Shown here piece after piece: positions 518 through 64,000 of a stretch of DNA of 64,000 nucleotides. This DNA comes from Dioscorea cayenensis subsp. rotundata (taxonomy: Eukaryota; Streptophyta; Magnoliopsida; Dioscoreales; Dioscoreaceae), in the NCBI RefSeq assembly GCF_009730915.1, contig NC_052474.1, positions 20,743,501 to 20,807,500 of the forward strand. Direction: 5' to 3'. Position 1 is the stretch's first letter, and the number at the start of each line of letters is the position of its first letter. A model generated the notes under the pieces. That model ran no database searches. It was not told the origin of the DNA and saw only the letters and a program-made list of their open reading frames with translations. The translations under genes and the position numbers were made by a program.

Positions 518-561
<44 letters not shown>

Positions 562-1497: not shown

Positions 1498-4400
1498 ATG
1501 GCAACGGTGCCGAAGAGCGTCAGAAAGCAGGCTGAGGTGCTACGCAAGGCCGGCAACGCTGCCTTCAAAAAGGAGCGATTTGGTGCGGCTATTGATGCCT
1601 ATACTGAGGTGAGAGACCATATATCTGGGCGAAATTTGGGATCTTTGATGTTTGTTGTACTCTCTCTCTCTCTCCCCTTCCTTTTTTTTGAAAAATTCCC
1701 CCATTTTTTTGGGTGATTTGATCTTTGTGGCATGTTTTCTTGTGGTTTTCTGGTCCGCATATAATCGATTTTATGGCCAATTTTGGTTCTTTGTTGCGAA
1801 TTTTGTTCAATTAGGTTTGTTCTTGATCCATTCTCTGTTCAAACCTTGTTTTTTATTTTTTATCTTTTAAATGATTAACATGGATTGCGTCTTTTAGTTC
1901 TCAGTTTCCTGTTTTTTATTGTCATTTTTCTGATTCTCGCTAATTCTTCTGATTTTTGTTTGTTCCTCGTCCTTATTTTTGGTTCAAAATTTAATCTTTT
2001 TTATTCTGGGTCAATTAGAAGTCTTTCCTGAGTCAATTGCGGTCAACTGTGAGGTTTGTTAAAGTTAAAAAGCATTTATGTTCTCTATTTTAACCATGCT
2101 ATTTCCTTATCAAATTTGAAAATTTATGCCTCCTTTAGTTCATGACATATTTGTTGTTCATAGCGGAATTGAATGCTTATTAGTTCTTGATTGGGAGGTT
2201 TTTCAGGCGATTGTGCTTTGTCCAGATGTATCAGTTTATTGGACAAATCGGGCTCTGTGTCGCATGAAGAGGAAGTTTGTACACCAACTGTCCTGTCTCA
2301 TTTTCTTTTCTCTTGGAATTCTTTTTTCTTTAATTTTGAAGAAATTGATTGTTTCTTCTTCTTTGGTTGTGCAGTGATTGGACTGGAGTTGAAGAAGACT
2401 GCACACGAGCTTTGGAACTTGATAGTAGCTCTGTTAAGGTGAGCTTTCATCAGTTTTCTTCAATCAAAATTTTTTCTGTCATTGGGAGTTATTAGCATTT
2501 TCTAATACTTGAAAAGAGGCTCCTTTCCTCCCATTCTACTTCATGGATAAATTTAATGGTTGCAACATCTTGTAACTTTCTATCTGTTAACGGTTCCTGC
2601 AATTTGGTCAAATATTGTAGAAGTGTTGTTCAACCTCGTAGTTTTTATTCTCTCCTTACCTGAAAGATGCATTGATTGTCATCATAGTTCTTGTGGGTGA
2701 TATTCTTGCATTCAAGAGCTGATTGTAAATATTGGTCTCTTGAGTGGAGGGTGAATCCATTAAGGACCTGTGTCAAAATATAACAGAATCCTTTTTTGTG
2801 AAATGATGTCTATTTGTTCTAATTCAAAATCAATGCGAATTCTGGCTTTTGCTGCACTGATATTTTTCTCTCTCGATCTTGCACTCCATGTAATATATTG
2901 AAGGAACTTCTTGTTATATGTTTCAGAACATTCAGGGGTTTTTCCCAATGTTGGTGGTTTTGAAACCCTTTGAAAAAAATTTAATTGTTCTAGTGCTTAA
3001 TTACTACATAAATGATGTATCCATTTTCATCTGAATCTGATCCTTCATATGTTTTACTCTGCCGGCCCTTGAATTTCCAAGGTATATCGAATGTGCCACA
3101 CCTCCTTTTTATTCTAAGATTTGTTTCTGAAAATATTTCTTTTTTTCTTAGTCATCTTTGTGTCAAGTAGTTTTGGGTCATGACCATACATTTGGAAATC
3201 GCTCTCAGCTACCCTTAACAATACGGGATATATTGCTTGTGTGATTGAATGATTTATCTTGTTTTTATTCCAGGCTCACTATATGCTGGGGCGTGCACTG
3301 TTGATTAAGCAAGACACAGTCAGAGGGATCAAGGAATTGGAGAAGGTTAATCCCTCTGTTCTCAATTTATAAATCCTGAAAAGTGTTTGTTAAGAAATGT
3401 TGGTTTCTTTTGTTAATGATTGCTGTGCTGTAAAGATTCTTATATTGTTGAGTGGGAGCTGTAAAGGTAAAGCTGCTGTAATAAAGCTTATTATGTGAAT
3501 AACTACAGTCATTGGAAATAAGGCTATAGATCTGCTGCAAGTAAGCTGCAATATAGGCTTTTTTCTGACTGAAAGGGACCGTTATCTTCTGACAATGACT
3601 TTCTGATATGTTTGCATTATTCTCAAGTTACCTTCATCTTCTTTATTTTCCATGTTTATGGAGATGTTTCTCAGATGCTAATGAATAATTTCTATATAAT
3701 TTGTTTGACATAGGCTTTGGATCTTGGGAGGGGTGCAGATCCTTCGGGATATATGATTGACGAGATTTGGCCGGTTCTTGCTGATGCCAAGTACAAGGAG
3801 TGGGAAGAGTTGTCTGATCGACGAGCATGGAAGCTACAGTGTTTGAAGTAGGTCACTCATATCTCCGTAAATGAGCAGTTCTGAGAATTCCATCTTTGAT
3901 GTCCTTTGATGCACACTGCACGGCTATAGTCTTATCTGTACTAATGCTATATATTTCAGGGAATTGTGTAATGAAGCGCTGATAGAGCATGATTTTCTTG
4001 AAACCTCTCGTACTTTGGATGAATCTGGAAATGCTGCTGCTCGTGACCGCCTCTCTGAACAATTAGAATTATTAGGCAGAGTTTTTAGTAAAGCAGCTGA
4101 AGCAGATAAGCTGACTGAAGTGAGTCTTATAATTCTCTTTTCACGTGGCATTTTTATCGCTCTTTGAATCGTTGATAATTATTCTTGGGATTGATATTAT
4201 ATTGATATTATTTAGATACCCGACTACCTTTGTTGCAAAATTACACTTGATATCTTCCGGGATCCTGTGATCACTCCAAGTGGTGTCACTTATGAGAGGG
4301 CTGTTATTCTAGAGCATCTTCGGAAGGTGACTTTGTGTTTGACCTCTATTTCTGCATACTTTTTAGTACAGAACTTTAACCTTTTCAACTGTCAATAAAG

Positions 4401-4526
4401 GTGGGGAACTTCGATCCTCTCACACGGGAACCACTTGAACGACACCAGTTAGCTCCTAATCTTGCCATCAAGCAAGCCGTCCAATCATTCCTCAGCGAAC
4501 ATGGCTGGGCTTACAAGACTAACTAA
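1498..4526 (+). CDS. CHIP: CHIP-type E3 ubiquitin ligase (TPR + U-box), 8 exons
   Basis: Exons: 1498-1608, 2207-2274, 2375-2438, 3274-3345, 3714-3847, 3960-4119, 4216-4326, 4401-4526, all with GT-AG borders and an open frame of 281 codons plus TAA, close to the Arabidopsis protein. The N-terminal ~120 residues are TPR repeats ([20 protein letters not shown], then [15 protein letters not shown] and [10 protein letters not shown]), which in this family hold the C-terminal tails of Hsp70/Hsp90. A helical middle region follows. Residues ~204-281 form the U-box ([18 protein letters not shown], then [11 protein letters not shown] and DPLTREPL), which recruits the E2 enzyme. The known family role is chaperone-coupled ubiquitination of misfolded client proteins in the cytosol. 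The start is the ATG whose peptide begins [13 protein letters not shown]; nothing upstream continues the homology. The gene is convergent with the methyltransferase at 4930. It looks intact. Confidence 0.95.
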
Positions 4527-4929
4527 ATCCAACGCTATTATTAAATAAAGGGCTTCCAAGACAAGTTTTTCTTTTGTGTGCTGTTGTTGCATCAAAAGCT
4601 GATCACATTGTGTGTGGAGTGCCTATGTACAGAGAGTCAGGTTCAACTTATTGTTTAGTGAATCGAGCTAATATATTTTCATGTTTGTTGTATAGACAAT
4701 TGGCTTCGACTATGGTGTTTGTATCGAAATGGAAGTTCAGAATGTGAATGAAACTTCATTTTAATTCCTTCTCTCTCATTGTTGTACAGAGAATTGCATC
4801 AGTGACGTTTGGATTATATTCTGTTATCTGATACAGAGAAATTTTGTAAAACAAACGATGATGAAAACTGAAAGACTAAAAGACCAAGTTAAGGTACTGC
4901 TATTTTGCTGTAAGTTTGGATGTTCTAAT
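4527..4929. other. Convergent 3' intergenic space
   Basis: About 400 bases between two convergent genes. It should contain both 3' UTRs and polyadenylation regions. No other feature seen. Confidence 0.6.
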
Positions 4930-6256
4930 TCAAGTCATTGGTTTCTCAAGTAGGGCAGAGATGTACCACTCATTCTTTTCGATCCCTCTGTCGAGCTTCC
5001 TCCCTGCATTCCATCTCAATTTTTTGAACCCAATCCGATCAAACGTAGGCACATACGTGGAGTTGAGCTGATTTCCGATGCAGAAGAAGTGATCAAGCCA
5101 GAACAGCCCGCCTGGTCTCAGCACCCTGTAAATATCAAACAGCGCAAACTCCAACATCACGTCGGGGATCCAGTTGCTCAGCACATGCATCGAATGCACG
5201 ATGTCAAGCGTATTCTCAAAGAAAGGAAGCCGATTCGCGACACTGATGTGCAGCGGCACAAGCCCTCGTGATGCAATGAAGTTATTGAACGGGCCATCGA
5301 AGTTCATTGTTGTGGTGACAATGGTAACCTCATGCTCTCTCATTCTCGCAGCAAATGTTCCCGGATCCACCTCCAATGTCAAGACCGATACGTATGGTCC
5401 CCTTCGGCTTCATCTTCAGCACCTGCTCAATTCCATAGTCAAGCTCACCATTGTCAAAGGTCCACCTTGTCTTCTCCCTTCCATTAAGATCAAAGCAGTC
5501 CTTGCAGTCATAAGATCCCTTGTCCTTGTTTCTCTCAACAAGACATTGATAGTTCTTGCAGGTATATGCATCCCAGGTGATGCTAGAGTCTGGAGGTATG
5601 CTCCAGAGACTCTCCGGAAATGGAGATGGTTCAACATAACCAGCAGGGGGCTTCAGGTGGCATCTCCGGCGAGGAAGTGGCTCACAACCCTTGAGCATCA
5701 AATGCTGCGCGAAAACATCATCAGCGGGGCATTCTCCGCCAATTTGATAGCTCATGTACTGCATCAGCTCTTCTTGGTATCTCCGGCAAGCAGTGCCAAG
5801 AGCAGGATAAATCTCATCAGCGCCAAGATTCGGTGTGAAGCCTAAAGGGAGTTTGTGAGGACCTACAGCAAGCTTAAGCTCACCGGAAAGCTTGTGTCGC
5901 CAACCATCTGACTCCTCCGGCAATGCCTTCTCCTTCTGAGCTTTTCCAAACTCAGTCAGGAGTGTTTCTAAGAGTGAGTTAGAGGTCATGAGACGACGCC
6001 GGAGCTCCACCATTTCGGTCTGGCTTGAAGAGAGTTTGGCTTGTGTGGAGTTGAGCTCATGGAGGAGTGTTTCAGAGTCAAAGAATTGAAACTTCGGGCC
6101 GTATTTCGACAGTTTGAAGTTCGCCGAAGGTCCGGCCACGAGGTAGATGGTGAGGATATTGGTCGAGAGGACTAATAAGATGATCTTGAGCTTGTTCCGG
6201 ATCGAAGAGCTTTGTTGTTGTGAAGGTTTTCTATGGTAATCATCCATCCCACCCAT
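4930..6256 (-). CDS. Membrane-anchored SAM-dependent methyltransferase, At1g29790-like, with one frameshift
   Basis: A single-exon gene on the minus strand starts at the ATG at 6256. Its first frame gives MGGMDDYHRKPSQQQ, a hydrophobic anchor at about residues 23-42 (KIILLVLSTNILTIYLVAG), a helical stalk and a Cys-containing middle region (CKNYQCL, CKDCFDL). It runs into the SAM-binding motif I (IGLDIGGGSG, about residue 296). The frame then shifts by one base within 5357-5363 (minus-strand GGGAACA where family members read GGGACA). The second frame carries FAARMREHEVTIVT, NFDGPFNNFIASRGL, LPFFENTLDIVHSMHVLSNW, YRVLRPGGLFWLDHFF and the conserved tail ALLEKPMT. Removing the extra base would give a 441-residue protein, the usual family length. 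Either this is a consensus error or a very recent inactivation, since no other decay is seen. The family topology suggests a type II membrane protein of the secretory pathway; the substrate is unknown. Confidence 0.85.
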
Positions 6257-8128
6257 TTCTACTTGTTTTAGTTCTATTTTGCAGTGTAATTGAGAACAAT
6301 GAAAGTTTTCATAGAGCTCTTAATGGAACCAGTTCTCTTTCACTATCTCACACTTTTTTAAAATTCAGTTAAGGGACAAATTTGGCGGGAAACACGCGGG
6401 AAGTAACGGCTAGTTTATTGCTTTTTATTCCTAGTTCAATGTAACCCGCCTTTTGTGCCGTTCTAAGTTTTTATATATTCCTTTTTTTCTTTTTTTTTTA
6501 ATTGTTTTCATTAATTTAATAATTAATAATTACATAAATAATAATAGAGGTTTGACTGTTTGAATGGACCTGGCCAGATGGGTTAAGCTTGTTTATAATG
6601 AACAAGCAAAGTGATTTAGTCTTCATTATTTTATTAGTTTTTGAAGGTTGCTAATTAATGAACCTATTGATAAGGTCTCAATAATAATATTTTAAGTTTA
6701 TTATTAATGAAAACAAAGACTTTGTTACTTTGATTTGCTTGGAAGTAAATGGACTTTGAAATCAATAATGAATGAAGCCATGCTTTCTTCACATGTGATG
6801 TCTCAATGTTGTTGCTTTTCTTGCAAGTTCTTTGCACATTCACTGTTTAGTTGGGCTCTTATTTCAGTGTTCTTATTATTAGATTTGGTTAACACCGGCA
6901 GAAGGTGGTCCTAACTGTTAAGAAGAATCTTGGAGTTTATTGAGCTAAAAAAAAAAATTTATATGGATAGTTCCTGAGAGACACACATTACTACCAGACT
7001 AGTTTGATCATTTTTGTCGGACTATATGAAAAAATACGACTCTCTAAATTATATTTTGGTTGTGTTTATTTTGTGTTTTGTTTTCTAAAAGAACATATAG
7101 AGTTAGTGTTTTAATTCAAAATCGAAAAACATGAAACATTCGAAAAAGAAAACATAGGATTATGTTTTTAATTTAAAATCGAAAAATAAAAAGTATATTA
7201 CACATTTAGTGAATTTTTTTATATTATATTATTTTTTTTTTTGTCCCTTGAGATTTGTTGATTTTTTTAATAAATTATGATCAATCTATTTCATTAAAAA
7301 AAAATCATTCTAGATAATTAATAAATCATATATTCAAAGACATATTTCAAGACATTTTGACCACCGCTGGGAATACTTTATGAATTCTGAACTGGCATAT
7401 GAATGAACCTAATAAGATAACAATTACTGACTCAAGAATTAATAAGTACTTAGCTATAGTTTTTACAAATATAAATATTAGTCTACTTCTACTCGTTTGA
7501 TGTGGCATATAACTGCGTATGGCATAACATTCATACTGTCCGAGAAAAAAATGAAAACTTAAATTTTGTATTTAACCATGTTTTTATAAACTTAGCAACT
7601 TTTACCAATAAATCGATTATTTCAGAGTGATCACATGAGATTAATTTCCCAATTATTTTTTTAAAAAAATTAAAAACAATAATCTAATATTTTTTAAAAT
7701 AAAATATGAACTAATTATATTAGAGATTTTCATTAACATGGAGTTAATATCTCAACACATCTGTGCCATCATTTTGTATGAGTTGAGATTTAAATTTATC
7801 TCATGACACAAACAACTTTTATTATGAACCCAACTGCAATGAACTAAAAAGATTGTTAGGTTATTTAATAAATTTATGAAATTCTCAAATCAAATAATTA
7901 AGTAATTTAATTATTAAAATTTTCAGAAATAAATAATGATTTATTTATTTATTTATTTTGATCTTTTCGCTTTGTCGGAGGAGGCACAAACTAGTTTAGG
8001 GGCATCAATTCATTTGCTTAAACAAACCCAATAATAACTCACTTAGATCATATTATTGATATAATAATCAATGGTTTTTTTATTATAAAATCTAATTATA
8101 TATATCTAATAAATACGATAAGCGTTGT
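6257..8128. other. AT-rich intergenic DNA upstream of the methyltransferase gene
   Basis: The first ~200 bases are the likely 5' UTR and promoter of the minus-strand methyltransferase. The rest is AT-rich with poly-A/T runs and a short (TTTA)n tract near 7938-7960. No gene or clear mobile element was recognised. Confidence 0.6.
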
Positions 8129-18700: not shown

Positions 18701-18709
18701 TAATTTTTA
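18701..18709. repeat. Left target-site duplication of MULE A
   Basis: TAATTTTTA immediately before the element end; the identical 9-mer is at 28193-28201 on the other side. Confidence 0.85.
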
Positions 18710-19779
18710 GTGGAAATTGCCAAAAACCCTTTAAGTTTTGTAAAATCGCCAAAAACACCCCTTAGCTTTTTCGTAAATCCCCAAAAACCCTCCTTTTAAA
18801 AGCTTCATGTTTTTCAAACCCCAAACCGTAGAATCGGATGCGAATCCGAGCGAGTTTCAAATTTTTGGACTTAAAAATGCCCTTGATGTGAGTCGTGCGC
18901 AAGACCTATCTCAGGGCGATTTGAGAGGAAGTGGGGGTTTTCCGTGAGGGTAACCCCGAGACGAATTTACTTTGGAGTCCCGCTTAATCGCTTTTTCTCA
19001 ACTCACGCCTTCGCCTTTTTCCATTTCCAGTCGCTCTCAGGGTTGTCTCTACCGGCCAAGCCTCCAGAATTGGCATTTCATCGCCTTTTCCCTTTCCACG
19101 TGATCTCAAGGAGAAGTCCCTCCCGCAACTAGTTGGCATTTCATCAGCTTTGCAATCTAAGGTATTGAGTATGGTTTTTACGTTAACTGCTCTGCTATCA
19201 AAAGAAAGATTTTTTTCGGTTTTGCTGTGCTCCCCGCTTTTTGTTGGAAGATATCGAAGTCTCAGTGGGGATTTCTACTGGGCTTTTTGTTAGTCTCAGA
19301 GGAGATTTCTCGGTTAGGGTTTTGTTTTTGTTTTCAGATTTCATATGTATACACTATCGGGAAAATAGCTTTTTCGATTGTTATGATTTCGTGTAATATT
19401 TATAATGTACACTTTCCGCTTCGCTTGATATGGTTGCGCTTTACAAACGAGCGTCGACGCGTTAAGAAATGAGATGTTACGCTTAACATTTGTTGTCTCT
19501 GCTCAAGTATTCTCGCCTCGCTTAACAAAAATGGGTCTCTATTTAACATTTTTATATCTCTCGCTTAATAATCGAGAGTTTACCGCTTAAAAACCTTATA
19601 TTTCCGCTAAACTGTCATCATCGCATCGTCGAATGTGTTGCTATCGTCGCAGGCTTGTGATTAGCGCGCGGTCAACCTAGTTAACGGGCGCTGCTATTTC
19701 GACACTCGGCCAAGGAGACCTTAGTCAATCGAAGTTAATACTGACCCTCGACACTCGGGAGATTATTCAAGGACACCGC

Positions 19780-22730
19780 TTGCGCCGCTCACTGAGATGG
19801 AAGCCATATACCAAGAGAGGGCCTCTTCTTGATTCTCTTTCGCAGAAAGGTACGATGGTCGCACTCAATAAATTCGAGGATCGGGAAAGCTTCTCGCCGA
19901 GTTTTGCACCCTCAAGATGCCGCCCTCGTTTTTCGGTCTCATGGCTACGATGGCGACGCAGATGGGTCTTCTCGTAAGAAGAAAACCAGTCGCCGTCAAG
20001 GACTGCAGATCTATCAAAGACCCATGAGAGACACCAGTAGACTCCATCAAGAGCACCTCGCAACTTGTTCGACGGAGGAGGAAGAAGATAATTTTGTCAA
20101 ACTCTCGACGGCGCACTCATGCGGGACGCCCCTCTTCCCAAATACATCACGCTTGCTCCGAATCGGATCGCTGATTACGCTGACGATCTACCACCATCGG
20201 GGCGACACGCACGGGCGCAGACGCACATATGCCGGCGTGGAGGATATTCCACAGCGTATCGCTCGGAGTGCAAGATAGACGCCACGGGAAGTAGCACCAA
20301 CACATGGCAGCATTAAGGGTTGCTCGTCGCTAACGTCTGTTTTACTGAGTCGACCGAACGGGAAGAAAAGTCCGTTTCTAGAAGATCCCAAGGATGTTGT
20401 GCTATGGTGAAAGTACTTACCGGAAGCAAGCGACGGTAGAAACGAGCTTGTCATCGCTCGATGGAAAAGAGGTAATAAATCATGGACAATGTTTAACATA
20501 AGTCTTTAATGTTTAAAACATTTTATTTAGCGCTTAACTTTAGTATTTACCGCTTTAACTCATTATTCATACCGGTTTAAATATTTTGTTCTCCGCTTTA
20601 ATTATATTCTATAACGCTTAAATATATAGTTTTTATAGTTTAAAATGAATGATCTCATCGAAATTGTTTTGGCTTATACATATGTTAGTTTCTGATCGGT
20701 TCCGCTGAACGTCAAGAAGAAATATTTGCGCGCATCGCAACAACCCCCCTACCACGACAACGACAGGGCCCCTGCATCACGGCAGCCCCTCACGGATTGC
20801 AGCCCCACCGCGACATTGGGCGAAGATGTCACCGCGAACTCTTGGCGCAGCAGTAGCGTGATATTGACGATCGAGTTTCTGGGGCTTGCTCGCCTGCGGG
20901 GAGGCGCTCGGAAGGACGCTTTGCAAACGGCCGCGCTCTATCCTCGAAAGAACTCGAGCACCCGGACGAACGAGGCGTGAAATTTGAATGTACGCTGACA
21001 TCATCGGGAAGGTCATTCCAGGCGCTCACATTCAAGAGACTTTGCGTAAAAAGAGGAGAATATCATCGCCTGTCTCCACCGCGGCTTTCACTGACGAGAA
21101 TAATAAGATACATTATCGGGCTACTGACGCTGTTATCGAAGTTCCGGCCGCATTGATGACATGGCTACGACTGGAGGACATCGTAGATGATGTGGCTGCC
21201 GTTGCGGCTGAGAGGTCGCCGACTCCTTTCTCGATGAAATCGCCGACCCGCTGGAACCTACCGCTGAGATCTGGCAGATCAAAGATGGACACAACCCTCA
21301 AGGTCAAGAACAAGCTTAAGCGTGTCTCCCATGACGCTGTCATGGCCACGGCCGAGAAGATCGCCGAATCTGCTGCCGCGGCCGCGCCGACAAGACTCGC
21401 AGCCCAAGCGAGGACACAATCCCACCACAACAAGAACCATGTGAAGGAAGTGTCCATGCGGTTGATGCTTTGCCGCCGCCGTCCTCAAGATCGGGCTGTA
21501 CACAATCCCACAACAAGAACAACAATGTAAGGACGTGTGCGGTACTGATGTCGCCGCCATCGCCCCCGCGATCGAGCAAAGATCTGATGAAGACCCCGAC
21601 CCGAGCAACGAGAGATGATGAAGGCCAATCAAAAATCGACCGACTGCTCGGAAAGCTTTTTATTCAAGAAGAAGAAATCGGGTCGTTCGAGTCGTCTTAA
21701 CAACACTGACAGCGAGTTGACGAGGATCTTCCTCAACCGCCTCATGCATGACGGTAAATGTAACGCTTTTTGATGATATTGTTTAAAAGGGTTTCTTATA
21801 GTGTTTAACTATTAATTAATAGTGTTTAATACCATTATGTTATCATTTAAGTTTTCGCCTTTACCGCTTAATTATATATACTATCATGTAACAATTGATA
21901 ATATCATTTAAATATTTACAATATGGTCTTCTAATATCGCATATCGCTTAACCTCAAACGACTGCTAGTGCTGAAGAACGACGTACTGCCGCGACCACAC
22001 GCCGAGCAGCGTTATACACGCTCGCCGAGGGAAGGAGACGGTCACTCGATGATGCTGATGTACGCTCAGATGCATAATACAAAAAGTCACTGAAAGCAAA
22101 GAGCCATATCTCTTACAAGAAGCGCTGCCTCATCATCGGATCATTAGGCTGCTTACGCTCAAAGCAGGACGACGCACATGACACACACTATGGCTATGAT
22201 CGGGATGCCGCAAGCAACTCGCATGAAGTTCAAATTGTCATCCTCCCGATAATCACGAATGGCCACTTTCCATGTCGTCGCCCTCGACAATGTATAAACA
22301 AGAATATGTATTATTCTTCACGTCCGGGTACTGATAAGGACGCTGACTGACTGGTAAGTTCTTTAATTATGTCCGACATATCTGCTTGGTATTTAAATCC
22401 CAGATTCTAATCTCGACTTGCATATCTCTCGACAATGGAATCTATTCCGACCTTTGGCCGACATACGGAGTTAGGCGAGTCTGCCGACGCAGTACCCACT
22501 GCAAGATCTGCTACGTAAAACCCCACGCCTAAAATAAGGAAGGCCGATTGCGCCCTGCCTCACGCCATCGCGGTTTATCGAGCACCATCATGGGTGAGAA
22601 GTTACGGCCACCGCATGCACGTTTCCTTACCTCGGGACATAGATGTTACCCGCGATACTTAAGGAGGGAGTACACGCTGCCCATGACAAAGTGCGGGGTC
22701 GCCATGCTGGTTAAATTGCTTTTGAATAAC
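19780..22730 (+). pseudogene. Decayed Ulp1-like (C48) cysteine protease gene inside MULE A
   Basis: GC-rich coding-like sequence lies between AT-rich motif blocks. The C-terminal part is recognisable in fragments: IVILPIITNGHF and then HVVALDN (22230-22290, containing the catalytic His region), a DCA triplet at 22546 in the position of the catalytic Cys, and RFIEHHHG soon after (about 22570-22595, another frame). The pattern hydrophobic-PI..NGHFHVV.LDN followed by DC and RFIEHH is that of Ulp1-like proteases carried by plant MULEs. Upstream, 20988-21530 has a longer open stretch rich in Ala, Arg and Ser without a clear domain, probably the low-complexity N-terminal part. Frame changes separate the motifs, for example between NGHF and HVV, so no working protease is encoded. 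The functional proteins of this family cleave SUMO-like conjugates; the role in transposons is unknown. Confidence 0.7.
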
Positions 22731-22784
22731 ATGTCTTAGTATATCTCGATCACAATTTTGTTTTCAAATGTAATCCGACAAATT

Positions 22785-23345
22785 AATTCATTGTTTTCGT
22801 GTTCGAAGAACATGCACTTGTATATCTTAATGTAAATTTTGTTTGTTTTGAATTGTAAAGCGGGTTAAATTCCATTCGGGTTTTTATTTCATTGTTTAAT
22901 TTACGCTTGTAATTGTGTACATTTCACTTTCATCGTTTAAATATAAGTATATATCGCTTTAAAACATCGAGTTTTAAATATTTCAAATTACGCGTATCCC
23001 GCTTAAAAATAACACTTTCTCCGCTTTAAATAAATGCACTCATTGTTTAACTAAATATGGAAAGTTGCCCATCAATACACAATTCAATTCATTGTTTTTG
23101 TTTTCGAAGAACATGACTTTGTATATCTCAATGTAAATTTTGTTTGTTTTCAATCGTAAGGCAGGGTTAAATTTCATCTCGGCTTTCATTTCATCTGTTT
23201 AATTTACGCTAGAAGTTGTGTACATTTCGCTTTCATTGTTTAAATATACCATATATCGCTTAAAACATCGCTTGAAATATTTCAAATTACAGTAGTATCC
23301 GCTTAAAATAACAATGTCTCCGCGTAAAATACATTCAATTCGTTG
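22785..23345. repeat. 301-bp tandem duplication in MULE A
   Basis: Copy 1 begins at 22785 (AATTCATTGTTTTCG) and copy 2 at 23086 (AATTCATTGTTTTTG). They align over almost their whole length with scattered substitutions and small indels. The second copy fades near 23345. Each copy carries several CGTTTAA/CGCTTAA words. It lies between the protease and transposase remnants, where both 3' ends would meet. Confidence 0.85.
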
Positions 23346-23522
23346 CTAAATACACAATGTTTCGTCATCGCTCGGTTTATTAACGCCTAGTCGGGCGACA
23401 GTTTCATCGCAAGATCGCTCGATCGTGACCGGATCCTTGCGCGTAGCCGTAATGTAACTCACGGACATCAAACGCTCATGACTCAATCCTCTTTCGCCCT
23501 AGGCCGCCCAGCTTTTCTTCAG

Positions 23523-25960
23523 TCACAGCGGTCGCAGAACGAAGCTCACGATTTCCGGCTCAAGGCCCTCGCTATCGCCGGGTATGGGAATATAGCTTCC
23601 TTGTACTGCCAGTTTGTAATTGTCGACGCTGAAGTACCCGCTTAATAAATCGATGTACGCTGGTGTCCGCTCTGCATTGTCTAGCCGCGCAAGCATGTTT
23701 CGAAGGGATACCATAAACTTGCCACCTCGATACGTAACAAGTTCCGATGGCGAGATCCACGGAGTTGCTGCATTGGTCGATCACTTCGTGAATCGATCAT
23801 CGACACAACGACCAACACGTAAGATTTCGGGTCCGCCCTCAACAATGATCTCTAACTTCGAATGTATGTCCGGGCATAAGTAGGTCTCCCATTTGGTCGC
23901 TTGCTCACACTGGCTACATAACATGCGCATCAACTCGAACCTGCAAATAAGGTTAAACAAAGGCATGCTGATGGTTAAATAATTCGTCAACATGTTTAAA
24001 CATTATCAGAATTAAATAAACAGAAATGATTAATATTTAAAGTCGAAAAAGTGTAATTAAACAAAGATTTGAGAATGTTTAAAGGGTAATACTAAATGTT
24101 GAGTGTATATCAACATTCGCGACATCTTATGGAGTCGACCATTTTCGCCACCGGTAAAACTGACGAGCTTCCTTGATCCAAGCATTGAACGACTCAGCGA
24201 CGCTCGAATACATCTCACCCCAACGATCACCTCCCGAACAGTATAATTCACCATGTGCCATATCCGGATTTATTAATCAACCGTGATGAGCTCGAGTGAT
24301 ACGGCCTGCAGTTCATCTCACGGTATCATCGAAATCTTTAGCCGTGGATGCCCACGCAATGCGGAAGCTATTATAGACCAAAGACTCCTCCCTCAATGCC
24401 TTCCCAAGTCCGACATTGGCTTTCAATCGCCTCCAAATGTCGAAGACAGATGACGCGTGTGGCGAAGAAGGAAGACTCTCGCAATCGCGCTCACAAGGCC
24501 CCTCGACTCGTCTCGAGACGAAGGCTAATTATCTCATGATAATCTCCACCCTCGATAAGGCATCGCCCAACTTAGATATGAACCAAGTCCAATTGGCGAT
24601 CGGTCGTCATTGTCGATCTATACCGGCGACGTGGAAAAACCATTGTTACCATCTTTCCCTGCGCCCAGTGAGTGTACCCCGATATTTTCCAGGGAGGCGG
24701 TACCATCGAGAAAAAGCTAGCCGGCCCGCAAGCCCTCTCGAATCCCACAATACACACCGAAGAAAGAATGCACGCTTTAAAACGATCACCGCTCTCTCCA
24801 CGATCGCAACGCCGCCGGATTTGTCTCACCACCTTATCCACATACCAAAGCAACACAGATCATACTGGAGATGTCAACGCCTGCCGAGGACCACCCGGCA
24901 TGCTCTTTTCCCAACCAAGCTCGCTAGTATGGTATGTGGACACCATGTTCCCACACACACGTCCTTCCTCGAATGTCGATGGCCTCGTCAAGGGACGCGT
25001 CCTCGAGCTTCGCGAATCACTGCATGCGCTAACCCATTTTTTCGACGCTTTCGGATGTGACGCTGAACCTATGCCACCACCGCAATGTATGACGGGTTGA
25101 TTGCTCTTGATTCAAAGTATTTTTTTGTTATACTTTTGATGCATGAAGGCGCTAACGACAACCATCAGAGTCAGCATTCCATGACCACCCGATGTTTTTC
25201 GTCTTTATGAATTTGAAGTCAAAATTCCTTTTGATCGCATGATTTCAAGTACATCCTCGAAAATGTTCGACACCGCCAAACGTTGACTCAATATCCAACG
25301 ACAACACTTCGTAGAATGATCTCGACGAGGAAGGAAGACATCCCACACCGCCATGGTCACCATGGGATGAATGGGGCACTCGCAATCCGAATTCCCGCCA
25401 ACACTCACATCATATGAAAAGATCAATATGTTGCTTTGGAGAATATAATGTTTAGCTGATAACTGACAATAGTTAAACGCTAAATTAAATACTTAAACAA
25501 TTAACTAATAACGTAAAGGACTAGTACAATATGTTAACCAAACGTTGACGGACATATTTAAACAATAATGACTCCCTGCACAACCGGAATAATTAAAAGA
25601 AAAAGGAACTTACAACGAGTAAACCTCGCTTTTTCATTAGGATTCGCGAACGGCATTATACGTCTCGACGACAAGATCAACTACAAGACATTTGAAGATG
25701 GAGTGGACGCTGACACATCCTACTGGAAGTCAACATCGCTTATCAGGGCAAACCGCTTTTATATCCATCCGGTGTGATGAACTTAACTCGATAAGAGAAA
25801 CTTCGAGACCCCATCGCTCACATATCTTAGCTAACACCAATTCCCAAGAAGTCTCGAGCCGTGAACATTAGCACTCTTCCCTCCCCGCTGAATCTAGCAA
25901 TACCACAAAAACTCTCCATAATATATCGATTCGAAACCAAATCAGATAAAACCAAATGAA
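23523..25960 (-). pseudogene. Decayed MULE transposase gene of MULE A
   Basis: Read on the minus strand, fragments appear in family order. First is an N-terminus starting MESFCGIARFSGEG near 25915, shared with MULE B. In the middle is the MULE core: LLWYVDKVV, FKACILS, the DGT word near 24700, then GKMVTMVF-type sequence for the usual A.DGNN motif and IDNDD. Next come RLKANVGLGKALREE near 24400 and MVNYTVRE plus AESFNAWI-like sequence near 24200. The C-terminal SWIM zinc-finger region is CYVSRWQVYGIPSKHACAA (23650-23730), followed by GYFSVDNYKLAVQGSYIPIP, the conserved tail after the SWIM motif. Motifs fall in different frames and several indels are evident. The first Cys of the SWIM motif is partly obscured. 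The gene is broken. Its family cuts and pastes elements by binding the terminal inverted repeats. Confidence 0.8.
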
Positions 25961-28192
25961 ACGAAGAACAAAACGAAGACGACGTAAGAAGAAGTAGAGA
26001 TGTAAAGAACAAACAAAGAGAGAAAGGCAAACAAAAAGCTGCATTGTATGCATAGAGGTTAGACTAGACGTGATGTGATTGGGCTGGTATTTTTCCCTCC
26101 ATCCTAAGGGCAAAAAGGGAAATATATGTCATCGTCACGAGGAAGACATATCATGTCATCGCTCGAATGAAAGTTCTCAACTCAACATGAGTCTCCGCAG
26201 TAAACGCTGCTTTTTATGTTTAAAATGTATACATATAGTGTTTAAAAATAACGGTTAACTCGCTTTAACTAAAAGTCTATATCATGTAAATAATATGTTA
26301 TTGTTTAAATTGAACGCTTTTCAATCGACATCGCGTTGCTAGATGGGTACCTCCTCGGGTCATCGCTTTAAAACATATTTACGTATTTTCTTAAACACCG
26401 TCGTCATTGTTTAAAGAGTAACTTGAGTATTGTTTAACTTTTTTTCTATCGTTTACAATGACGCTTTTTGTTTCCCACATTGCTTTTTACTAGGTCTCCT
26501 GCTTTAAATTTCGTAGTTCACGATCAAATACGATTGTTTCGCTTTTATTTATAAAAAGATTTACAACATTTACAACATTTACAAAGATTTACAACATTTA
26601 CTAACATTTACAACGTCCGCTTCGGACTTTGACACTCACGACTCGACCTCGTGATAACGAAACAAGTGTTCAGATATTCGAATGCTCACAGTGTTGCATA
26701 ACAAGCGCATCAACTTGAACCTCGCAAAACGTACAACATTAAAAAGGTTAAACAACACACATTCATGAAAAACGACTATTAATCAATGTGTCATGGTAGG
26801 ACTTAAACGACGATCCCGATAGTTAAACACGTAACGTAATCAGCTTAGTACATCGACGCCATTTTCTTAAACGCTAATGTAAAAGTCTCAAGTGGTAAAT
26901 GTCAACCTCGTCTTTAAAGGATGTTTCACGATCTCCCTCCCTCTAGAGAATCCTCCGCAATCACGCAATACGTGAAAAACTCTCTTTTCTTACCCAAGTC
27001 GAAATGCCTCTTAATCGCTTTCCCGCCATCCACCACTGGAGAATCCTCCGCATCGTGCACCATTATGAGAGGACTTCGGCTCAGGTGAAAAAGATAGTTT
27101 AACTAGTTCGGGTGATTACGGCCAATCGATTCTCAAGATAAGGAAGAAGGCTCACTGAAAACATCCTTTCGAGATCAGAGCGGTTGTCCATGGGAAGAGG
27201 AGGAAGAGGAGGAGGAGGAGGAGGATGATGAGGACGACGAGGGAGTGGTTGTCCATGGGGAGGGTTCTTCCCGGTTATTTATGGTGTGAAGTCCATAGCA
27301 GTCGACTTTCAGATCCGAGAAAAGTTAAACGACGAGGGCCGACATCGATCGATGAGAACGAACGGGTGTTCGGAAATTTTGTTATAAACAGGCATAAGAA
27401 TTAATGCCGCCATTAATTCTTACGCACGGGATACCATAACCTCGCCACCGCCACCGCCACATGCCAACAATTCGATCAAACGAAAAAAAGATCACCGCTT
27501 TTACGCAGACTTTGAGAATTTACATCGCTTACTGAATAGTTATACATGTAAAGATAATGTTAAAAGGAGATGGGAAGTATTAAACGGATATGACAATTAT
27601 TAAACATATTAGTAAAAATATTTTAAACGGATAATAGCAAATAGTTAAACATTATTTAAAAATATACAAATAGATAACCATAAACGAGAAGAACTTTTAC
27701 AACGAAACGAACTCGTCAGTAATTATCGCTCTTCCTCGCCGTAATACAACTTTTACAACCATAAACGAGAAGACGACAATGGCACATGCTCCGCCTCGAC
27801 AATAAAATCGACTACATCTCATTTGAGACGAAGCTGCACTTGACCAATCCGACGGAAATCAATTTCATTTTCTCGCTCGAGAAACCGATTTATATATTTT
27901 CGGTATGATAAAACGGCGAGAACAACAAGATGTAATGCAACTCCCTCGCATCGTTTCATCGAAATCAGCAGAAAGTTCTTCAAAAGGTTGAATATGACGT
28001 GATTTGGCGCTTTCCTTTCTCACCATTTTCGTAAACTAAAATCGGGATTTCACAACACGGACCCATTCAGTGAACGGTAGGGGGTAAAAGGAAGTTAAAC
28101 ACTAAATCGAAGCAGTCGTCGTGATGTGTAAAAGAGTAGGGGGGTTTTTGGGAAGCTTTTGAAAATTACGAGGGGTGAACAGTAATTTTCCC

Positions 28193-28201
28193 TAATTTTT
28201 A
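28193..28201. repeat. Right target-site duplication of MULE A
   Basis: TAATTTTTA immediately after the element end; pairs with 18701-18709. Confidence 0.85.
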
Positions 28202-40950: not shown

Positions 40951-40959
40951 TATAATAAA
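40951..40959. repeat. Left target-site duplication of MULE B
   Basis: TATAATAAA directly before the element; identical to 47104-47112. Confidence 0.85.
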
Positions 40960-41310
40960 GGGTTGTTCACTCCTCGTCATTTTTAAAACTTTCCAAAAAC
41001 CCCTCCAACTTTTGCACACCCCGGACATCCCTTCGTTATATTTTACATTCTCTATAACCCCCCGCCGGTAAGTTGAAGTGGGTCCATGATATGAAATTCC
41101 TTTTTGCTATTGCAAAAGGAGGGAAAAAATGATGCTCAATCATATCATGTCCGAACTTTATCGATAGTTTTCAATTTTGTTTGCCTCCCTGCTTGTTTTT
41201 TTCTCAAACAAAGTTTTAGAAGGCTCATATCTTGTTCTTCTTCGTTCTTGTTCTTCTTTTTTTCTTCTTCCTCATTCTGGTGTACTCAATTTTAACTTTC
41301 TTCCGATTAA

Positions 41311-41560
41311 ATTATGGAGAGTTTTTGTGCTATTGTTAGATACAACGGGGAGGGGTCTAGTGCTACTCGTTCACTGCACCGACTTCTTGGGAATGAGTGT
41401 TAGTCGAAATATATGCGCGATGGGGTCTCGATATTTCCCGTGTCGAGGTGAAGTTTATCACACCCTGATGGACATAAAACGGTTTGTCTCATGCGCCACG
41501 TGCACTCCATCTTCAAATGTACTCGTTGTTGATCTTGTTGTTGGGGACGGATGATGTGGC
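41311..41560 (+). pseudogene. N-terminal remnant of MULE transposase in MULE B
   Basis: Starts with ATGGAGAGTTTTTGTGC, encoding MESFCAIVRYNGEG, and aligns with the minus-strand sequence of MULE A from about 25915 downward (shared: GACTTCTTGGGAAT, GCGATGGGGTCTCGA). The rest of the transposase is absent; motif blocks follow. Too short and broken to encode a working protein. Confidence 0.6.
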
Positions 41561-42729
41561 ATCGTATCCTACTAAAAACGAGTTCTCCTCGTTGTAAGTT
41601 TCTTCTCGTTTATGTTTATATAGTTGTAGAAGCTAATTATTGTTTAATTATCCATGTCTATGTTTAAATTTATCAAGTTTCCATTTAAACAATATTATCT
41701 CCGCTTTAACTTATTAACTTATTGTTTAACTTCTCACGTCAAATACAGATTAGTCGCTGACAAGGAGACCCGATGATGTGGCATCGTATCCTACTGGAAA
41801 TAACGGTTTTTCCACGTCACCTTCGGTGTTGTCGACAACGAGACCGATGCCTGTGACGAGAAGGCAAGCTGGGCGTTCTAGGCGAAAAGAGGATCGAGTC
41901 GTAGGCGTCCCGAGGACGGTGAGTTGCGTTGTAGCCATCTGCACGCTTCGGCCACAATCGCAGATCGTCGCAATGAATCTGCTGCAGAGTAGCCATTGTC
42001 TATATACTTCTTAGTATTGTTTAAATATTGAACTTTATATTTAAATACATCCATTACTCGCTTTAAATATTGACTTCTCTATTTAAATTTGTTTTTATCG
42101 TTTAAACTATATTTTTTTATCCGCTTAAAAATATACAACGCGATGGTGCCAGCGGTTCCCCAGCGTGAATTAATGCACGCTCGTTACCCAAGTGTTTCCA
42201 CTCCCGTCGCACATAAAAAAATCGAAGCCAGGGCAGCGAGTCGTTGGATTTCGCAGTATAAATGGGAAGGAAGAACCATTTCGTTGAACATACTCTACTG
42301 GCGCAACCACTCCTCTTCCTCTTCTTCTTGTGTGATGGTCATCCTGTCGAGTCGAACATTTGGTGTTCACGACATTCAAACCACATTTTTTAGATCATAA
42401 ACTTTTTACAGGATGTGTCATGATTGTTTTCCTCTTGTCATCCGTAGAACAACTCGTAGGGTGAAAACTTTCTTTTTTTCTTGCCTAAGGCGAAATGCTC
42501 GCATTCTTGCTCTACTGTAAGCAAACGACGAAGTGCGTTTCGCCTGGGTCAAGAAAAGAAGGTTTCACTTACAAGTTGATCATGGATGATTACCGAATAA
42601 GGTTCATCACATATCCTTTAAAAAAAGAACTTGATCTATAAAAAATGTGGTCTCGACTGGAGCGAGTGTTGTGGACACCCTATTCAAAGGTATACTTGGG
42701 ACGATTCCGAGGTCCGTGATGGTTACGCT

Positions 42730-43520
42730 CATCCGTTAAACGGAGAGTTTGAAGCTTAAACGAGAATTTTTTTGTATTGTCTTACATTCTATTTTTTTAT
42801 CGAGATTTGTATTTTTAAGTAAAGGTCATTGTAATTATGCTGATATTTAATAATAAAATGAATGTTGTATTGTATTGTATTAAATGTATTTTTATCAGAA
42901 ATTTGTATTTTAAGTACATTTCATTGTAATTACGTTGATACTTTATAAGAAAATGTTAAACTGAGAAAATGAAATTTAAACAGAGCAAAATAAAGTTAAA
43001 GGGAATAAATGTTATCAGAGATTTGTATTTTAAGTAAGTTGATATTGAATAAGAAAATGAATATTGTATTGTATTGTCTTAAGTGAACATTCTATTTTTA
43101 TCAGAGATTTGTATTTTAGATACATTACATTGTAATTAAGTTGATATAATACAATAAGAAAATGTTAAACAGAGAAAAATCAAGTTAAAGGGAGAAACTG
43201 ATACTTAAACGGTATTTTAAACAGAAACTTTGTTATTTTAAATAGAGAGTTTCAATACCTTAGACTGGGAGCTGATGAAATGCCGAATGCTTCAACGAGA
43301 ATTCTTCAGAGGGAAATATAAGTTGTTAAACGGTAAACTCTTAATTCTTAAATATTGATATCATTTGTTAAACAGAGACCTATATTATTAAACAGAGATA
43401 CAAATAGTTAAACGGAGACAACAAAACTTAAACGGTAAAAGCTCATTATTTAAACGGAGACCTCATTTTTACAACTGGAACCATATTAACTGAAAGGGTA
43501 AACGTAGATTATAAACATTA
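42730..43520. repeat. TTAAACGGAGA-like motif block of MULE B
   Basis: Many copies of TTAAACGGAGA, TTAAACAGAGA and close variants spaced irregularly (about 15-60 bases), with longer AT-rich near-repeats containing GAGATTTGTATTTTAAGTA (near 42800, 42900, 43020 and 43105). Same motif as in MULE A's left arm, read on the opposite strand. Confidence 0.75.
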
Positions 43521-44188
43521 CACAAATCACAACAATCAAAAAATCATTTCGATCGTGTACACAGATGAAAATGTAAAACAAAACAAAAACCATAGCCGAG
43601 AGATCTCCCTGCAGACTAACAAAACCCCAGCCGATAAATCCCCACGCAGGCTTCAATGTCTTCCAAGAAAAACAAAATCACAAAACAAAACCGAAAAATG
43701 TCTTTTCGTAACAGAATAGTTACAAAAAAAAACTATAATCAATACATTAGATTGCAAAGTGATGAAATGCCGAATACTTGCGCGGGACTTCTCCTTCGAG
43801 ACGCCGGTGGAAAGGAAAGAGCTGGAGACGCGAGTTGAGAGAAGACAAATGGTTGGAGACGCGAGTTGAGAGAAGACAAGTAGCTGTAGTCCTAAGAAAA
43901 ACCCACCCACTTCCTCTCACACCGCCGAAATGGGTGCAGCCATGATGTCACACCCACCCCTTCTACCGAGATAAATGTGGCACCCATCGCTTAAAAATTC
44001 CCTTTTTAACCGAAACCGACACCTGCTTTTTAAACAAAAATTAGACCTACAAGTTATAATTTACAACTTTACACCAACTGCAGGATTCAAATACAGAAAT
44101 ACAACAAATATAATAACTCAAATTTGCGGGTACAACCGCTACAAGATCACGATACCAACAAATATAAAGAAAAGTATGGGACCCACTG

Positions 44189-46934
44189 CAGTCTTGGACC
44201 TTACCTTGACTAGCTCTAAACTTGAACAGGCAATCTAGGGTCTTGCTCCCCGCAGATTCAAAGACATTCAGCTGGTCGGTAGTGGCTTAATAATTTCAAA
44301 TACTCAAATACAGTATATATATATAGTATATAAATATCAATTTCTCAAATACCATAATTCTAGCAAAATACGTCTTTAAAGAACTTTTGAAACATAAACT
44401 CATCATAAATCAATATCAAATCAATTTTCTAAGAAAATCCAAATTGTTGTGAGAGACTCGCCTCCCTAAGAAGCGGACAGTGGGCTTCGCCCTCATCACA
44501 ACCCAAAAATAACAAGTAATATAAAAAAATTCATTCTCAATTCCACGACCGAAAAACTCTCCCCACTTAGCCGTCAGCGACTAGGTTAGGAGCCGCCAGG
44601 TCTTGCATCCCTGAGCGTTGGCCCATCGGTCCCATGTGGTGACTCCGGGATCCCGATGTATAATCCAATCGTGGGCTCTACGCTCCCACCGATCCGGACA
44701 AATCAACACTCGTGTCCACCACGCCACCTCTAAAGGGCCGGCCCTGGGGACCCACTCATCGCATGAGTCGGGCCTTAGCCCGCGTCACCATCCAAACCAA
44801 CATGTAAATACAAAGAATAAAACAATCAGTATAAATCACATCATAGGGATCCTTATCCAGGGACAAGCATTCATATCACGAAAATAAACATCATTTCCAC
44901 AAAAGCCCAATGTCAAAAAGTATAACAATGCATAAAACCAAGTAAAAATCCAGATCCATGATACCATTCCTATTCCGGGAATGAAAACCAATTCCACAAA
45001 TATTGTTGGTAAAACATTTTAAAATGCTCACATGATTTCACAAATCATTCCAAATCAAAAGCATATATAACCATCAAAAAATAAATACATGAATTGAATA
45101 ATTAAATCACATATACATGTATTTTCACTATTCACAAATACGTATAATTATACTGAAACCGATGTATCAATACGATTTTCAGGAACATCATCGGCAAGTA
45201 AATATACGTATATTTTAACCTTATACGCAAATTAAACATGATAAAATGAAATACTTAAATAATTATTTCCAAAATACTAGCCATTAAACAGTTATTTCAA
45301 AATAATAATAATTAATTAATTTTTTAAAATAATAGCCACTACCAACTCACCTGGTGTCCTTGGGTTAATTCCCAGACCTGGAACTCCCTCCCAAGCCTGA
45401 ACAACACCCTAATGAATAATATAATAAAAAAATAAATATCACATTTGAAAACCCAAAAGAAAAATACAAAAAAACCAAGAATTGACTCTCTAATTGGGCC
45501 CACTTATTCCAATCGGTTAAAAACTCGGCCTTGAATAGTTAAATCGGTCTCCAATTGCACTTAAATTAACTTAATTTAGGCTAAACACTGCTGAACCAAT
45601 TTGAACCAAGATCAATTCCACTGAACCAAGTTTAATTGCACTGAACCAAATTCAATTTCACTGAACCAGATTGAACCAACCCAATTCTTATACAAAAATT
45701 TCCTGGACCAACTTGGTTCAACCGAACCCAAATTTTTCTTGAATTGGTTCAGCCAAAAATCCTTAGCCCAACATCCAAAACCAAGCCCAAATCGATCTCA
45801 ACCAACTCAAATTAACCAAACAATTCAAGTCCAACCACACTCAATTTGATTTGATCAAACCTAGACCAAATTAATTCAATTAAACCCAACCACACCAATT
45901 CTCATTCAAACCCAAGTCCATCTCAACTTGATTTGATCAAGCCCAACTCAACCAAATCAACTCAACTCAACCAAATCAATTCCAACTTGGTTTAATCTAA
46001 TCAAATCAATTGGACTAACTCAACCCATTTCAATCCAACAATCATCATTAACACCTTAATCATCATAATCATCAATTTAATTAACTAAACCAAATTTTTA
46101 ATCTCGTCATGCTACATGAATGCTACAAAGAAAACCGAAAATCTCATCCTCCATTTTAAAACAAAAAATTCAACTCAAATACTAAGATTTTTCCAAAAAT
46201 AACTTCAAGATTCATCATCAATAACAATCAAGCAAGTTTTTATTAATCAAAACCAAGTCCAAATCTCACAATAACAAGATAAAAACTTTAGCATCTTTTG
46301 CCCAAGTTTTCAACCAAATAAAAATGCATCATTTCAACCAAATAACTCTTACCAAGCAAGCAAACACTCCGTGAACTTTCTCCCAAGATTCTCCAAGCTC
46401 CAAACTCCTTCAGTCCCTCCCATTTTTCCTTTTCATTTTCATTTTCATTTTTTTCATCTCTCTCACGGAGTTCGTAGTAGCGAGTGGTGGAGAAGGAGAT
46501 GAACAATCATCAAAAGTCTAGATTTTTTCTCTCAATTAACTATTCAGCCGAAATTCACTTTTTAGTCCCTCAAAAACTTAACTTCTTACAAAACAGTCCC
46601 TGAAAAACTCACAAATGGTCCCTGGATTATAAAATAATATTCTCAAAAAGGTCCTTTAAAAATTATCCAATGGTCCTTGGATTATAACACAATATTTCCA
46701 AATGATCCCTTCAACTTACCTTTCAGTCCTTGGTTTCCGAAATATTTTATATCAATCCTTTTTCTATTACTCTTTAACCCAAAAATCTTTTATAAACTTT
46801 TTACACTTAAGTCGCTTGCATCGTCCACTCGGGCTTTCTCAACAATATTACTCACGTAGAAAAATCTATCGAACTATATAGTAATATCTCGAATATATTT
46901 TTCCAACGAGTTAATCATAGGTTCGAGTATTACA
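44189..46934 (-). mobile_element. Fossil LTR-retrotransposon sequence (probable solo LTR) inside MULE B
   Basis: On the minus strand it begins TGTAATACTCGAACC, a typical start of long plant Ty3/gypsy (chromovirus-like) LTRs. It includes GC-richer stretches near 44450-44770 and a low-complexity stretch of CAACCAAATCAA-like words near 45560-46030. No gag-pol sequence is present, so a solo LTR is likely. The right end is fairly clear; the left end is approximate (44.0-44.2 kb). It lies wholly inside MULE B and so was inserted after it. Confidence 0.5.
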
Positions 46935-47103
46935 CACTGACTTTCCCGTCGAGGGCATTTTCGTCCATAAAATTTAAAAAACACTTTGTTTAATGCCGTT
47001 ACGTACTTTGGGGGTTTGTGTAAAAGGAAGGGGTTTTTGGGGATTGCAAAACTATGGGAGTTTTTTTGGCAAAGTTTGGGGGGTTTTTTTTAGCAATTCT
47101 ACC

Positions 47104-56157: not shown

Positions 56158-57622
<1,465 letters not shown>

Positions 57623-62800: not shown

Positions 62801-64000
62801 AAACTTCCAAAACCCCTCCTACTTTTACACACCACTGATGACTCTTCCGTAGTGTTTAATCTCCCTTTACCCCTACTGCTCACTTCAAATGGGTCCATGT
62901 TGTGAAATCCCATTTTGTCCCCGAAAATGGTGGGAAAGGAAAAGCGCCAAATCACATCATGTTCAACTTTTGAAGGGCTTTCTCGCTTTTCGGCGGATAA
63001 TGCAAGGAGTTGCATTACATCTTGTTGTTCTCATTATCATACACCAAATATATAAATCGGTTTCTAATAAAATGAAATTATCCATCGATTGGCTGGCGAC
63101 TTCATCTTCAAACGAATGTAGTCGATTTTATTGTCGAGGCGAGCATGTGCCATTGTCGTCTTCTCGCTTATGGTTGTAGTTGGATTACGACGAGAAGAAC
63201 AAAGAATTACGACTGAGTTCATTTCGTTGTAAAGTCTTTTCCTGCTTATGGTTATCTATTTGTATATTTTAAATAATGTTTAACTATTTGCTATTATCCG
63301 CTTAAATATTTTACTAATATGTTTAATAATTGTCATATCCGCTTAATACTCCCATCTCCGCTTAACATTATCTTTACATGTATAACTATTCATAAACGTA
63401 CCAAAGTCTCATAAAACGGGATCTTTCGCTTGATCCGAATTGTTGCACGTGGCACGTGGCGTGGCAGAAAGTTATGGTATCCCAAGAAGAATTAATGACG
63501 GCATTAATTTTATGCACGGTAACATAAATCAACACCCGTCGTTTCATCACCAATGCTGCCACCGTATGCTTAACTTTCTGACACGAAGAGTCACCCCATT
63601 GGACTTCACACCATAAATAACTGTGAAGAACCTCCCCAATGGACAACCACCACCTCGCCCTCATCATCCTCCTCCTCCTCCTCCTCCTCCTCTTCCTCCT
63701 CTTCCCACGGACAACCACTCTATCTCAGGATGTTTCGTGAGCCTCTTCCTTATCTTGAGAATCAACAGCCGTAATCACCAACTGTTAAACTATTTTTTCG
63801 CTTGTCAAATCCTCCTCAGCAATCAACGCGCAGGGATCTCCAAATGCTGACGACGGAGCAATAAGAGAGCATTCGACTTGGGTAAGAAAGAAAGTTTCAC
63901 GTATTGGATTGCGGAGGATTCTCAGGAGGAGGACTGTGAACATCCTTTAAGACTGGGTCGATATTAACACCTGGAGACTTCTCTCGCTAACGCTAAGAAA
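62801..64000 (+). mobile_element. Mutator-like element (MULE C), one arm only
   Basis: The whole 1.2 kb aligns, in reverse complement, with about 26930-28160 of MULE A. Shared landmarks in the same order are CCAAAACCCCTCCTACT, CCCATTTTGTCCCCGAAAAT, the CCGCTTAA block at 63260-63400, GGTATCCCAAGAAGAATTAATG, and an acidic-codon (TCC)n tract at 63663-63705 that mirrors GGA repeats at 27195-27240. The element lies in opposite orientation to A and the same orientation as B. Its end is in the gap; the transposase would lie beyond the window. Similarity looks higher than between A and B, judged by eye. Confidence 0.8.

Follow-up and report, generated by a model that had tools for sequence, protein, structure and literature searches.

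How transposons resist silencing by their hosts is still being worked out, and the plant case has been described in Arabidopsis and, going by a title, in eudicots. That study, by Sasaki et al. in 2022, is said to describe the anti-silencing system for eudicots, and its abstract reportedly mentions a helical periodicity of the motifs in the VANDAL/VANC system. In Arabidopsis, VANC21 is reported to bind the motif YAGTATTAY, which VANDAL21 carries in its noncoding parts as arrays of one orientation; dense arrays of this type are tested targets of VANC21, and introns and the region upstream of VANA are where they evolve, in the manner of tandem repeats (PMC5735166). According to the same report, VANC proteins carry DUF1985, and their variable regions contain tandem peptide motifs (PMC5735166); motifs other than those of VANC21 are described for VANC6 and VANDAL6 (PMC10398659). 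According to a review, the KIU genes of Kaonashi are VANC genes that carry Ulp1 and form a subset of VANC; it also states that Ulp1 MULEs similar to KIU have been reported in grape, melon and rice, and it dates the capture of Ulp1 to the monocot-eudicot separation (PMC13317346). In a survey of MULEs, half of the VANDAL members are listed with PMD and/or DUF genes, and the majority of one monocot group with PMD (PMC6446971). The yam genus Dioscorea belongs to the monocots (PMC13128126).

The window analysed here is a 64-kb stretch of the yam genome (C4:20743501-20807500; the assembly that was searched comprises 584 Mb in 2,249 contigs), and the MULE at 18710..28192 within it is a complete element. 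The genome is identified as that of a Dioscorea by an exon matching Dioscorin 5 (E 6.5e-24; next chain 1.7e-9) and by a cluster on C14 of 12 of the 31 carbonic-anhydrase matches; for another such exon, an alpha carbonic anhydrase without a plant name ranked first and dioscorin third. On the plus strand, its gene 1 is laid out as a PMD/DUF1985-like domain, a variable linker and a Ulp1 (C48) protease, and it is convergent with a MuDR-type transposase on the minus strand (25708-23422). The noncoding parts of both genes and the intergenic and upstream regions contain same-orientation arrays of GTTTAA, which recurs every 20-23 bp; these arrays are absent from the preliminary description of this stretch and are the most telling feature of the element. 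The features of the window are listed below; unless stated otherwise, motif arrays were placed by motif and spacing count.

18701..18709, no strand: left target-site duplication (TSD) TAATTTTTA, adjoining the element start at 18710
18710..28192, no strand: whole MULE, non-TIR type, 9,483 bp (ends matched in 9 of 16 other copies; TSDs)
19480..19610, plus: motif array 5' of the PMD exon, noise-altered to CGCTTAA (motif reading)
19633..20472, plus: PMD/DUF1985-like exon of gene 1, frame-broken (tblastn with the L052 exon, best piece E 4.7e-16)
20490..20643, plus: motif array in a gene 1 intron, spacings 20-22
20744..21737, plus: variable linker of gene 1 (tblastn with L052)
21780..21951, plus: motif array in a gene 1 intron
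22012..22377, plus: C48/Ulp1 exon of gene 1 with the catalytic H and D (tblastn E 1.2e-22)
22480..22700, approximate limits, plus: C48/Ulp1 exon of gene 1 with the catalytic Cys (DCA, RFIEHH; letters read, homologous exon in relatives)
22893..23306, plus: motif array 3' of gene 1
23422..24015, minus: SWIM and CCHC region of the transposase (tblastn 1.2e-32)
23959..24080, minus: motif array in a transposase intron
24082..24920, minus: DDE (MULE) region of the transposase (tblastn with L052)
24972..25376, minus: MuDR-type DNA-binding domain of the transposase (PF03108 E 1.6e-4, under the cut-off; tblastn 4.2e-26)
25479..25570, minus: motif array in a transposase intron
25613..25708, minus: N-terminal exon of the transposase (tblastn with L052)
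26217..26510, plus: motif array upstream of the transposase, in plus orientation
26754..26880, minus: motif array in the right arm
27586..27660, minus: motif array in the right arm, period 20
27777..27872, minus: degenerate second copy of the N-terminal transposase exon (tblastn E 2.5e-4)
28193..28201, no strand: right TSD TAATTTTTA, adjoining the element end at 28192
40960..47103, minus: second family member, a 6,144-bp deletion derivative with arrays, between TSDs TATAATAAA at 40951-40959 and 47104-47112
62807..64000, minus: right-end part of a third family member, near full-length, which runs out of the window into locus L009

The ends of the element, GTGGAAATTGCC and, inverted, GGGAAAATTACT, are alike at 8 of 12 positions when read by eye, and the element thus has little or no TIR. 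The preliminary description had placed its borders exactly at 18710 and 28192 on account of a perfect 9-bp duplication, and these borders hold: TAATTTTTA abuts both of them, and the ends of the family agree. By itself, the 9-mer is weak evidence for a duplication, with 11 matches in the window versus 5.4 expected; the 9/9 duplication is unique at these borders, since none of 14,640 alternative offset pairs within 60 bp yields one. Seven elements were compared at both flanks, six of which have a perfect 9/9 TSD (the window MULE, the window copy 40960-47103, the elements on C2, C8 and C1826, and L063), and the one on C13 matches at 8/9 positions. A genome search for the 18-base left terminus GTGRAAATTGCCAAAAAC gave 329 matches, and its reversed control gave none. 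At least 16 other places in the genome match the MULE and are 84-90% identical in the main blocks (17 of 3,998 first-look candidates were scored, and copy counts are lower bounds). A comparison with such copies had been proposed as a check on the ends: all 16 extend to element position 9483, and nine of them also begin at position 1-8, with both ends within 8 bp. The window copy 40960-47103 has lost much of its coding sequence and retains its arrays and a perfect TSD. The third member continues to position 9535 of L009, adjoining a run of N, and its right end falls in the gap.

The genes were mapped with a cleaner relative on C18 (L052), which is 70-83% identical to the window MULE in three blocks (element positions 1-7055), is far less frame-broken than the window copy and whose exons were placed on the window by tblastn. 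Gene 1 maps to 19633-22377, with the Cys exon reaching to about 22700; this last exon gave no tblastn match in the window itself at 1e-4. The Ulp1-type letters that had been read on the plus strand are present, though scattered over several frames, and tblastn places C48 at 22012-22377. An additional GC-rich, coding-like part, which was left without identification before, is explained by the N-terminal PMD/DUF1985-like domain and the variable linker of gene 1. The SWIM-type transposase letters, also recognized earlier as lying on the minus strand and convergent with the Ulp1 gene, are likewise spread over several frames and were followed by tblastn from 25708 to 23422. Decayed second copies of transposase exons are found in the right arm at 27777-27872 and 26693-26755.

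A profile search of the window had been suggested in the preliminary description, and its outcome was largely negative: the six-frame translation (stops as X) gave only PF03108 (E 1.6e-4; score 21.7 bits, under the cut-off of 25) and a chance match, whereas the C48, MULE and SWIM profiles had no match up to E 1 in this translation. There was also no Pfam-level match to PMD in the window copy, and the region corresponding to PF10551 was recognized only via tblastn, without a direct Pfam match. When the same search is transferred to L052, the transposase exceeds the cut-offs for PF10551 (E 7.7e-13, 49.2 versus 27.6 bits), PF03108 (1.8e-22) and SWIM (4.1e-6), and a CCHC knuckle can be read by eye. 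Gene 1 of L052 matches PMD above the cut-off (E 1.2e-10, 41.5 bits, cut-off 34.9) and DUF1985 below it (E 3.4e-7, 30.8 bits, cut-off 35.1), which makes PMD the better match. Taken singly, the first C48 exon of L052 stays below the cut-off of 20.7 with 18.1 bits; the whole C48 place of this copy lies above it with 38.3 bits, and the same locus has PF10551 and PF03108. A Ulp1 (C48) gene is thus present within a MULE at the C18 locus, and the earlier reading of the window element as a MULE that combines a transposase with a Ulp1-type gene, tied to Kaonashi/KI-MULEs, is supported.

The linker of gene 1 contains tandem repeats of 26-27 amino acids in relatives (81 bp x 4.1 in L032, 78 bp x 2.1 in L052). 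The catalytic DC is retained in all seven C48 relatives, and H and D of the HFHVxVLDN stretch in six of them, the exception being L020. The first C48 exon is stop-free only in L022, L032 and L013 and has a stop or frame break in the other four. With stop codons skipped, dN/dS was 0.23-0.50 for C48 exon a (6/6 pairs) and 0.25-1.14 for exon b, with values below 1 in 14 of 15 pairs; two pieces of the transposase gave 0.42 and 0.54 under the same treatment. An AlphaFold model of the PMD exon alone had a mean pLDDT of 35.7, which is too low for use.

Within each array, the motifs have a uniform orientation: the arrays of gene 1 are plus, those in transposase introns and in the right arm are minus, and the one at 26.2-26.5 kb is plus again. 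The nine array segments of the window element hold 31 GTTTAA versus 3 on the opposite strand; since their strand was chosen after the motif had been seen, these counts show uniform orientation and are no unbiased test. A pyrimidine (Y) precedes GTTTAA in 77 of 87 array motifs of cleaner copies. Motif spacings in the window element peak at 20-23, 41-44 and 63-65 bp, which indicates helical periodicity. Pairs of GTTTAA 19-24 bp apart number 5+5 on the two strands of the window element, and one relative reaches 22+3. Genome-wide, there are 17,019 GTTTAA triplets at array spacing versus 74 for the reversed pattern, with triplets overlapping within long arrays. Among the matches listed, C1 up to 2.9 Mb contains 15 triplet clusters, as separated by gaps of more than 15 kb. 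The two that were examined (L063 and L064) hold family termini, and each of the other 13 has at least one sample that fits known family spacers above all 20 spacer shuffles in blastn (16 of 19 samples; three did not). CGCTTAA was considered as a separate motif type and rejected as mainly assembly noise of CTGTTTAA/CCGTTTAA, because L052 mostly reads TGTTTAA or CGTTTAA there and CTG is turned into CCG, CG or CTCG in noisy copies.

Arrays are also found in copies without genes. Between 2924 and 4654, L063 has both family termini, a perfect TSD TTAAAATAA and 26 plus-strand GTTTAA, 25 of which lie within three arrays, and comparison with the family loci gave no match to transposase or protease. 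Retention of the arrays after gene loss suggests a role in cis, for a factor provided in trans. Between the termini lies a fragment that is GC-rich, acidic and coding-like and marks L063 as a Pack-MULE-like derivative; unlike in Pack-MULEs, motif array makes up much of the rest of the interior. L064 contains two adjacent array elements in opposite orientations, at about 420-2443 and 3167-6260; both have family ends and are devoid of an ORF of 90 codons.

The combination of a transposase, a VANC/KIU-like gene and phased arrays matches the VANDAL anti-silencing system of Arabidopsis. As in VANDAL21 and VANDAL6, the MULE transposase has SWIM and CCHC, the TSD is 9 bp long, the TIRs are poor, the second gene combines a DUF1985-like domain (below the DUF1985 cut-off in yam) with tandem peptide repeats, and dense same-orientation motif arrays lie in introns and upstream regions. 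The yam element differs in its motif, YGTTTAA rather than YAGTATTAY, in scoring PMD above DUF1985, in its Ulp1 tail and in its monocot host; its anti-silencing role is predicted from anatomy, and no VANB was seen. A third, VANB-like gene at 26.6-27.9 kb was considered and rejected, as even cleaner copies have nothing in this region but decayed remains of transposase-like exons. With the KIU of Kaonashi/KI-MULEs and the Ulp1 MULEs of melon, grape and rice it shares a MULE with a transposase and a Ulp1-type gene; going by the descriptions in the review, it is set apart from them by phased arrays and gene-less array carriers in a monocot. Because KIU-VANDALs and, in the monocot rice, Ulp1-bearing MULEs have been described before (PMC13317346), the yam element is of a kind already known. 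For phased arrays together with a VANC/KIU-like gene in a monocot we found no earlier description, and no paper on VANC-type anti-silencing in Dioscorea was found either, in a literature search that covered few subscription papers.

We consider it fairly probable that the yam element is a KIU/VANC-like, sequence-specific anti-silencing MULE outside the eudicots, in which binding and demethylation are predicted from its anatomy. The minus-strand transposase would move the element, thereby creating the observed 9-bp duplications of an AT-rich target. Gene 1 encodes, as seen in relatives, a protein in which a PMD/DUF1985-like part is followed by a variable repeat linker and a Ulp1-type protease tail. 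This protein would work like VANC/KIU of VANDAL elements. It would bind the YGTTTAA arrays, whose motifs lie about two helical turns apart in introns and intergenic parts, and remove silencing marks there; autonomous and gene-less copies would thereby be transcribed and mobilized in trans. The protease tail might conceivably strip silencing factors at the arrays of SUMO or of a tag resembling it.

The arrays could instead be binding sites of the transposase, with gene 1 having another role. Ac/Ds and Spm have subterminal repeats that are bound by their transposase, and clusters of short motifs are often seen close to the ends of transposons. Gene-less copies of the yam family keep both termini and the arrays, and in the window element a reverse motif is located 92 bp away from the right end, which would suit such a function. 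However, most arrays of full-length copies are located in introns or between genes, the exact plus-strand motifs of the window element begin only 1.8 kb in and follow at 3.1 and 4.2 kb, and arrays occur in all seven C48-bearing relatives and are absent from the other MULE loci examined. In a sample of 30 of 47 C48 matches and 8 of 150 MULE matches that were cut out, YGTTTAA was present at least nine times in 7/7 element-related C48 loci and at most five times in 23/23 unrelated C48 loci and the 8/8 top other MULE loci. We therefore regard transposase sites as unlikely. Passive minisatellites, or a sequence preference of introns and UTRs that needs no binding protein, seem more doubtful still. 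AT-rich introns are prone to slippage, and the array units are clean tandem repeats in places (20 bp x 11.3 in TRF). Against this, one core recurs at roughly constant phase in different introns and subfamilies, where its spacers differ, and composition predicts about 0.01 pairs at this spacing per copy (0.00-0.02 in 200 first-order Markov simulations for each of ten copies, versus 4-22 observed on the richer strand). The motif bases also outlast the spacers, with pooled identities across relatives of 0.89 for motif bases, 0.74 for array spacers and 0.81 for the rest of the element. Among 72 ordered, non-independent pairs of nine sequences, 34 with at least 30 aligned motif bases were kept, and the motif was more conserved than the spacer in 33 of them (the exception being L009 to window). 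Relative to the rest of the element, it was above in 30, equal in one and below in three (lowest 0.56 versus 0.80), so that the arrays also turn over between relatives, as minisatellites would.

The element might also be an ordinary dead KI-MULE with two genes truly broken by age and nothing more, which we hold to be very improbable. Frames are interrupted in the window copy and in the C48 parts of its nine close copies (L042-L050), as this explanation would predict; yet relatives show longer open frames and constraint, the arrays would be left unexplained, and the differences point to technical error. The window copy and L042 differ by 391 indel events versus 486 substitutions, and CpG observed/expected is 1.35 in the element versus 0.61 and 0.65 in the flanks. 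When the window copy and nine close copies were compared all against all, the disrupted fraction was 0.716 for CTG/CAG, 0.262 for GTC/GAC and 0.13 for ATT, and CTG sites of cleaner copies are often CCG, CG or CTCG in noisy ones. The broken frames thus look largely like assembly error concentrated at CTG/CAG. CWG is a CHG methylation context of plants, and the disruption is therefore read as probable base-calling error, presumably of nanopore reads, in repeats that are methylated and poorly polished. The separation of error from real change is incomplete, because four of four pairs of cleaner copies also show the CTG effect, in a weaker form (0.42-0.54 versus 0.19-0.49 for GTC). While the observation made in the preliminary description stands, its interpretation is supported in part: calling the protease a remnant is doubtful, because the differences between copies cluster at CTG/CAG and consist of indels to nearly one half, as expected of assembly error in methylated repeats, and because the catalytic residues persist in less noisy relatives, where dN/dS is mostly below 1. 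Broken frames in this assembly can hence be methylation-linked errors and not pseudogenes, which calls for caution. Judging by the window MULE and L042-L050, the density of errors in this assembly may roughly trace CHG methylation.

If the KIU/VANC-like reading is true, one helper protein could unsilence a very large network of several subfamilies via one shared motif. The family would then have spread about 17,000 phased GTTTAA triplets through the yam genome, in autonomous-type, deleted and gene-capturing copies alike, and we see an even chance that sequence-specific anti-silencing of the VANC/KIU type is older than the eudicots or has arisen outside them. A shared origin across the monocot split is unproven, because the published system is described for eudicots; an element with VANDAL-like anatomy in a monocot crop makes the origin of the system testable. 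The yam element also supplies another pair of motif and protein for binding tests, and the gene-less carriers permit a test of trans-activation.

Other loci were noticed in the course of the analysis. The C48 loci L014, L015, L018, L021, L026 and L030 have similar frames of 325-334 amino acids with three or four internal TAA, are unrelated to this MULE by blastn and possibly belong to another repeat or gene family. Within the window, two similar coding stretches resembling oxophytodienoate reductase lie on the minus strand at 56158-56799 and 59150-59821, the latter of which matches OPR1 with E 3e-87.
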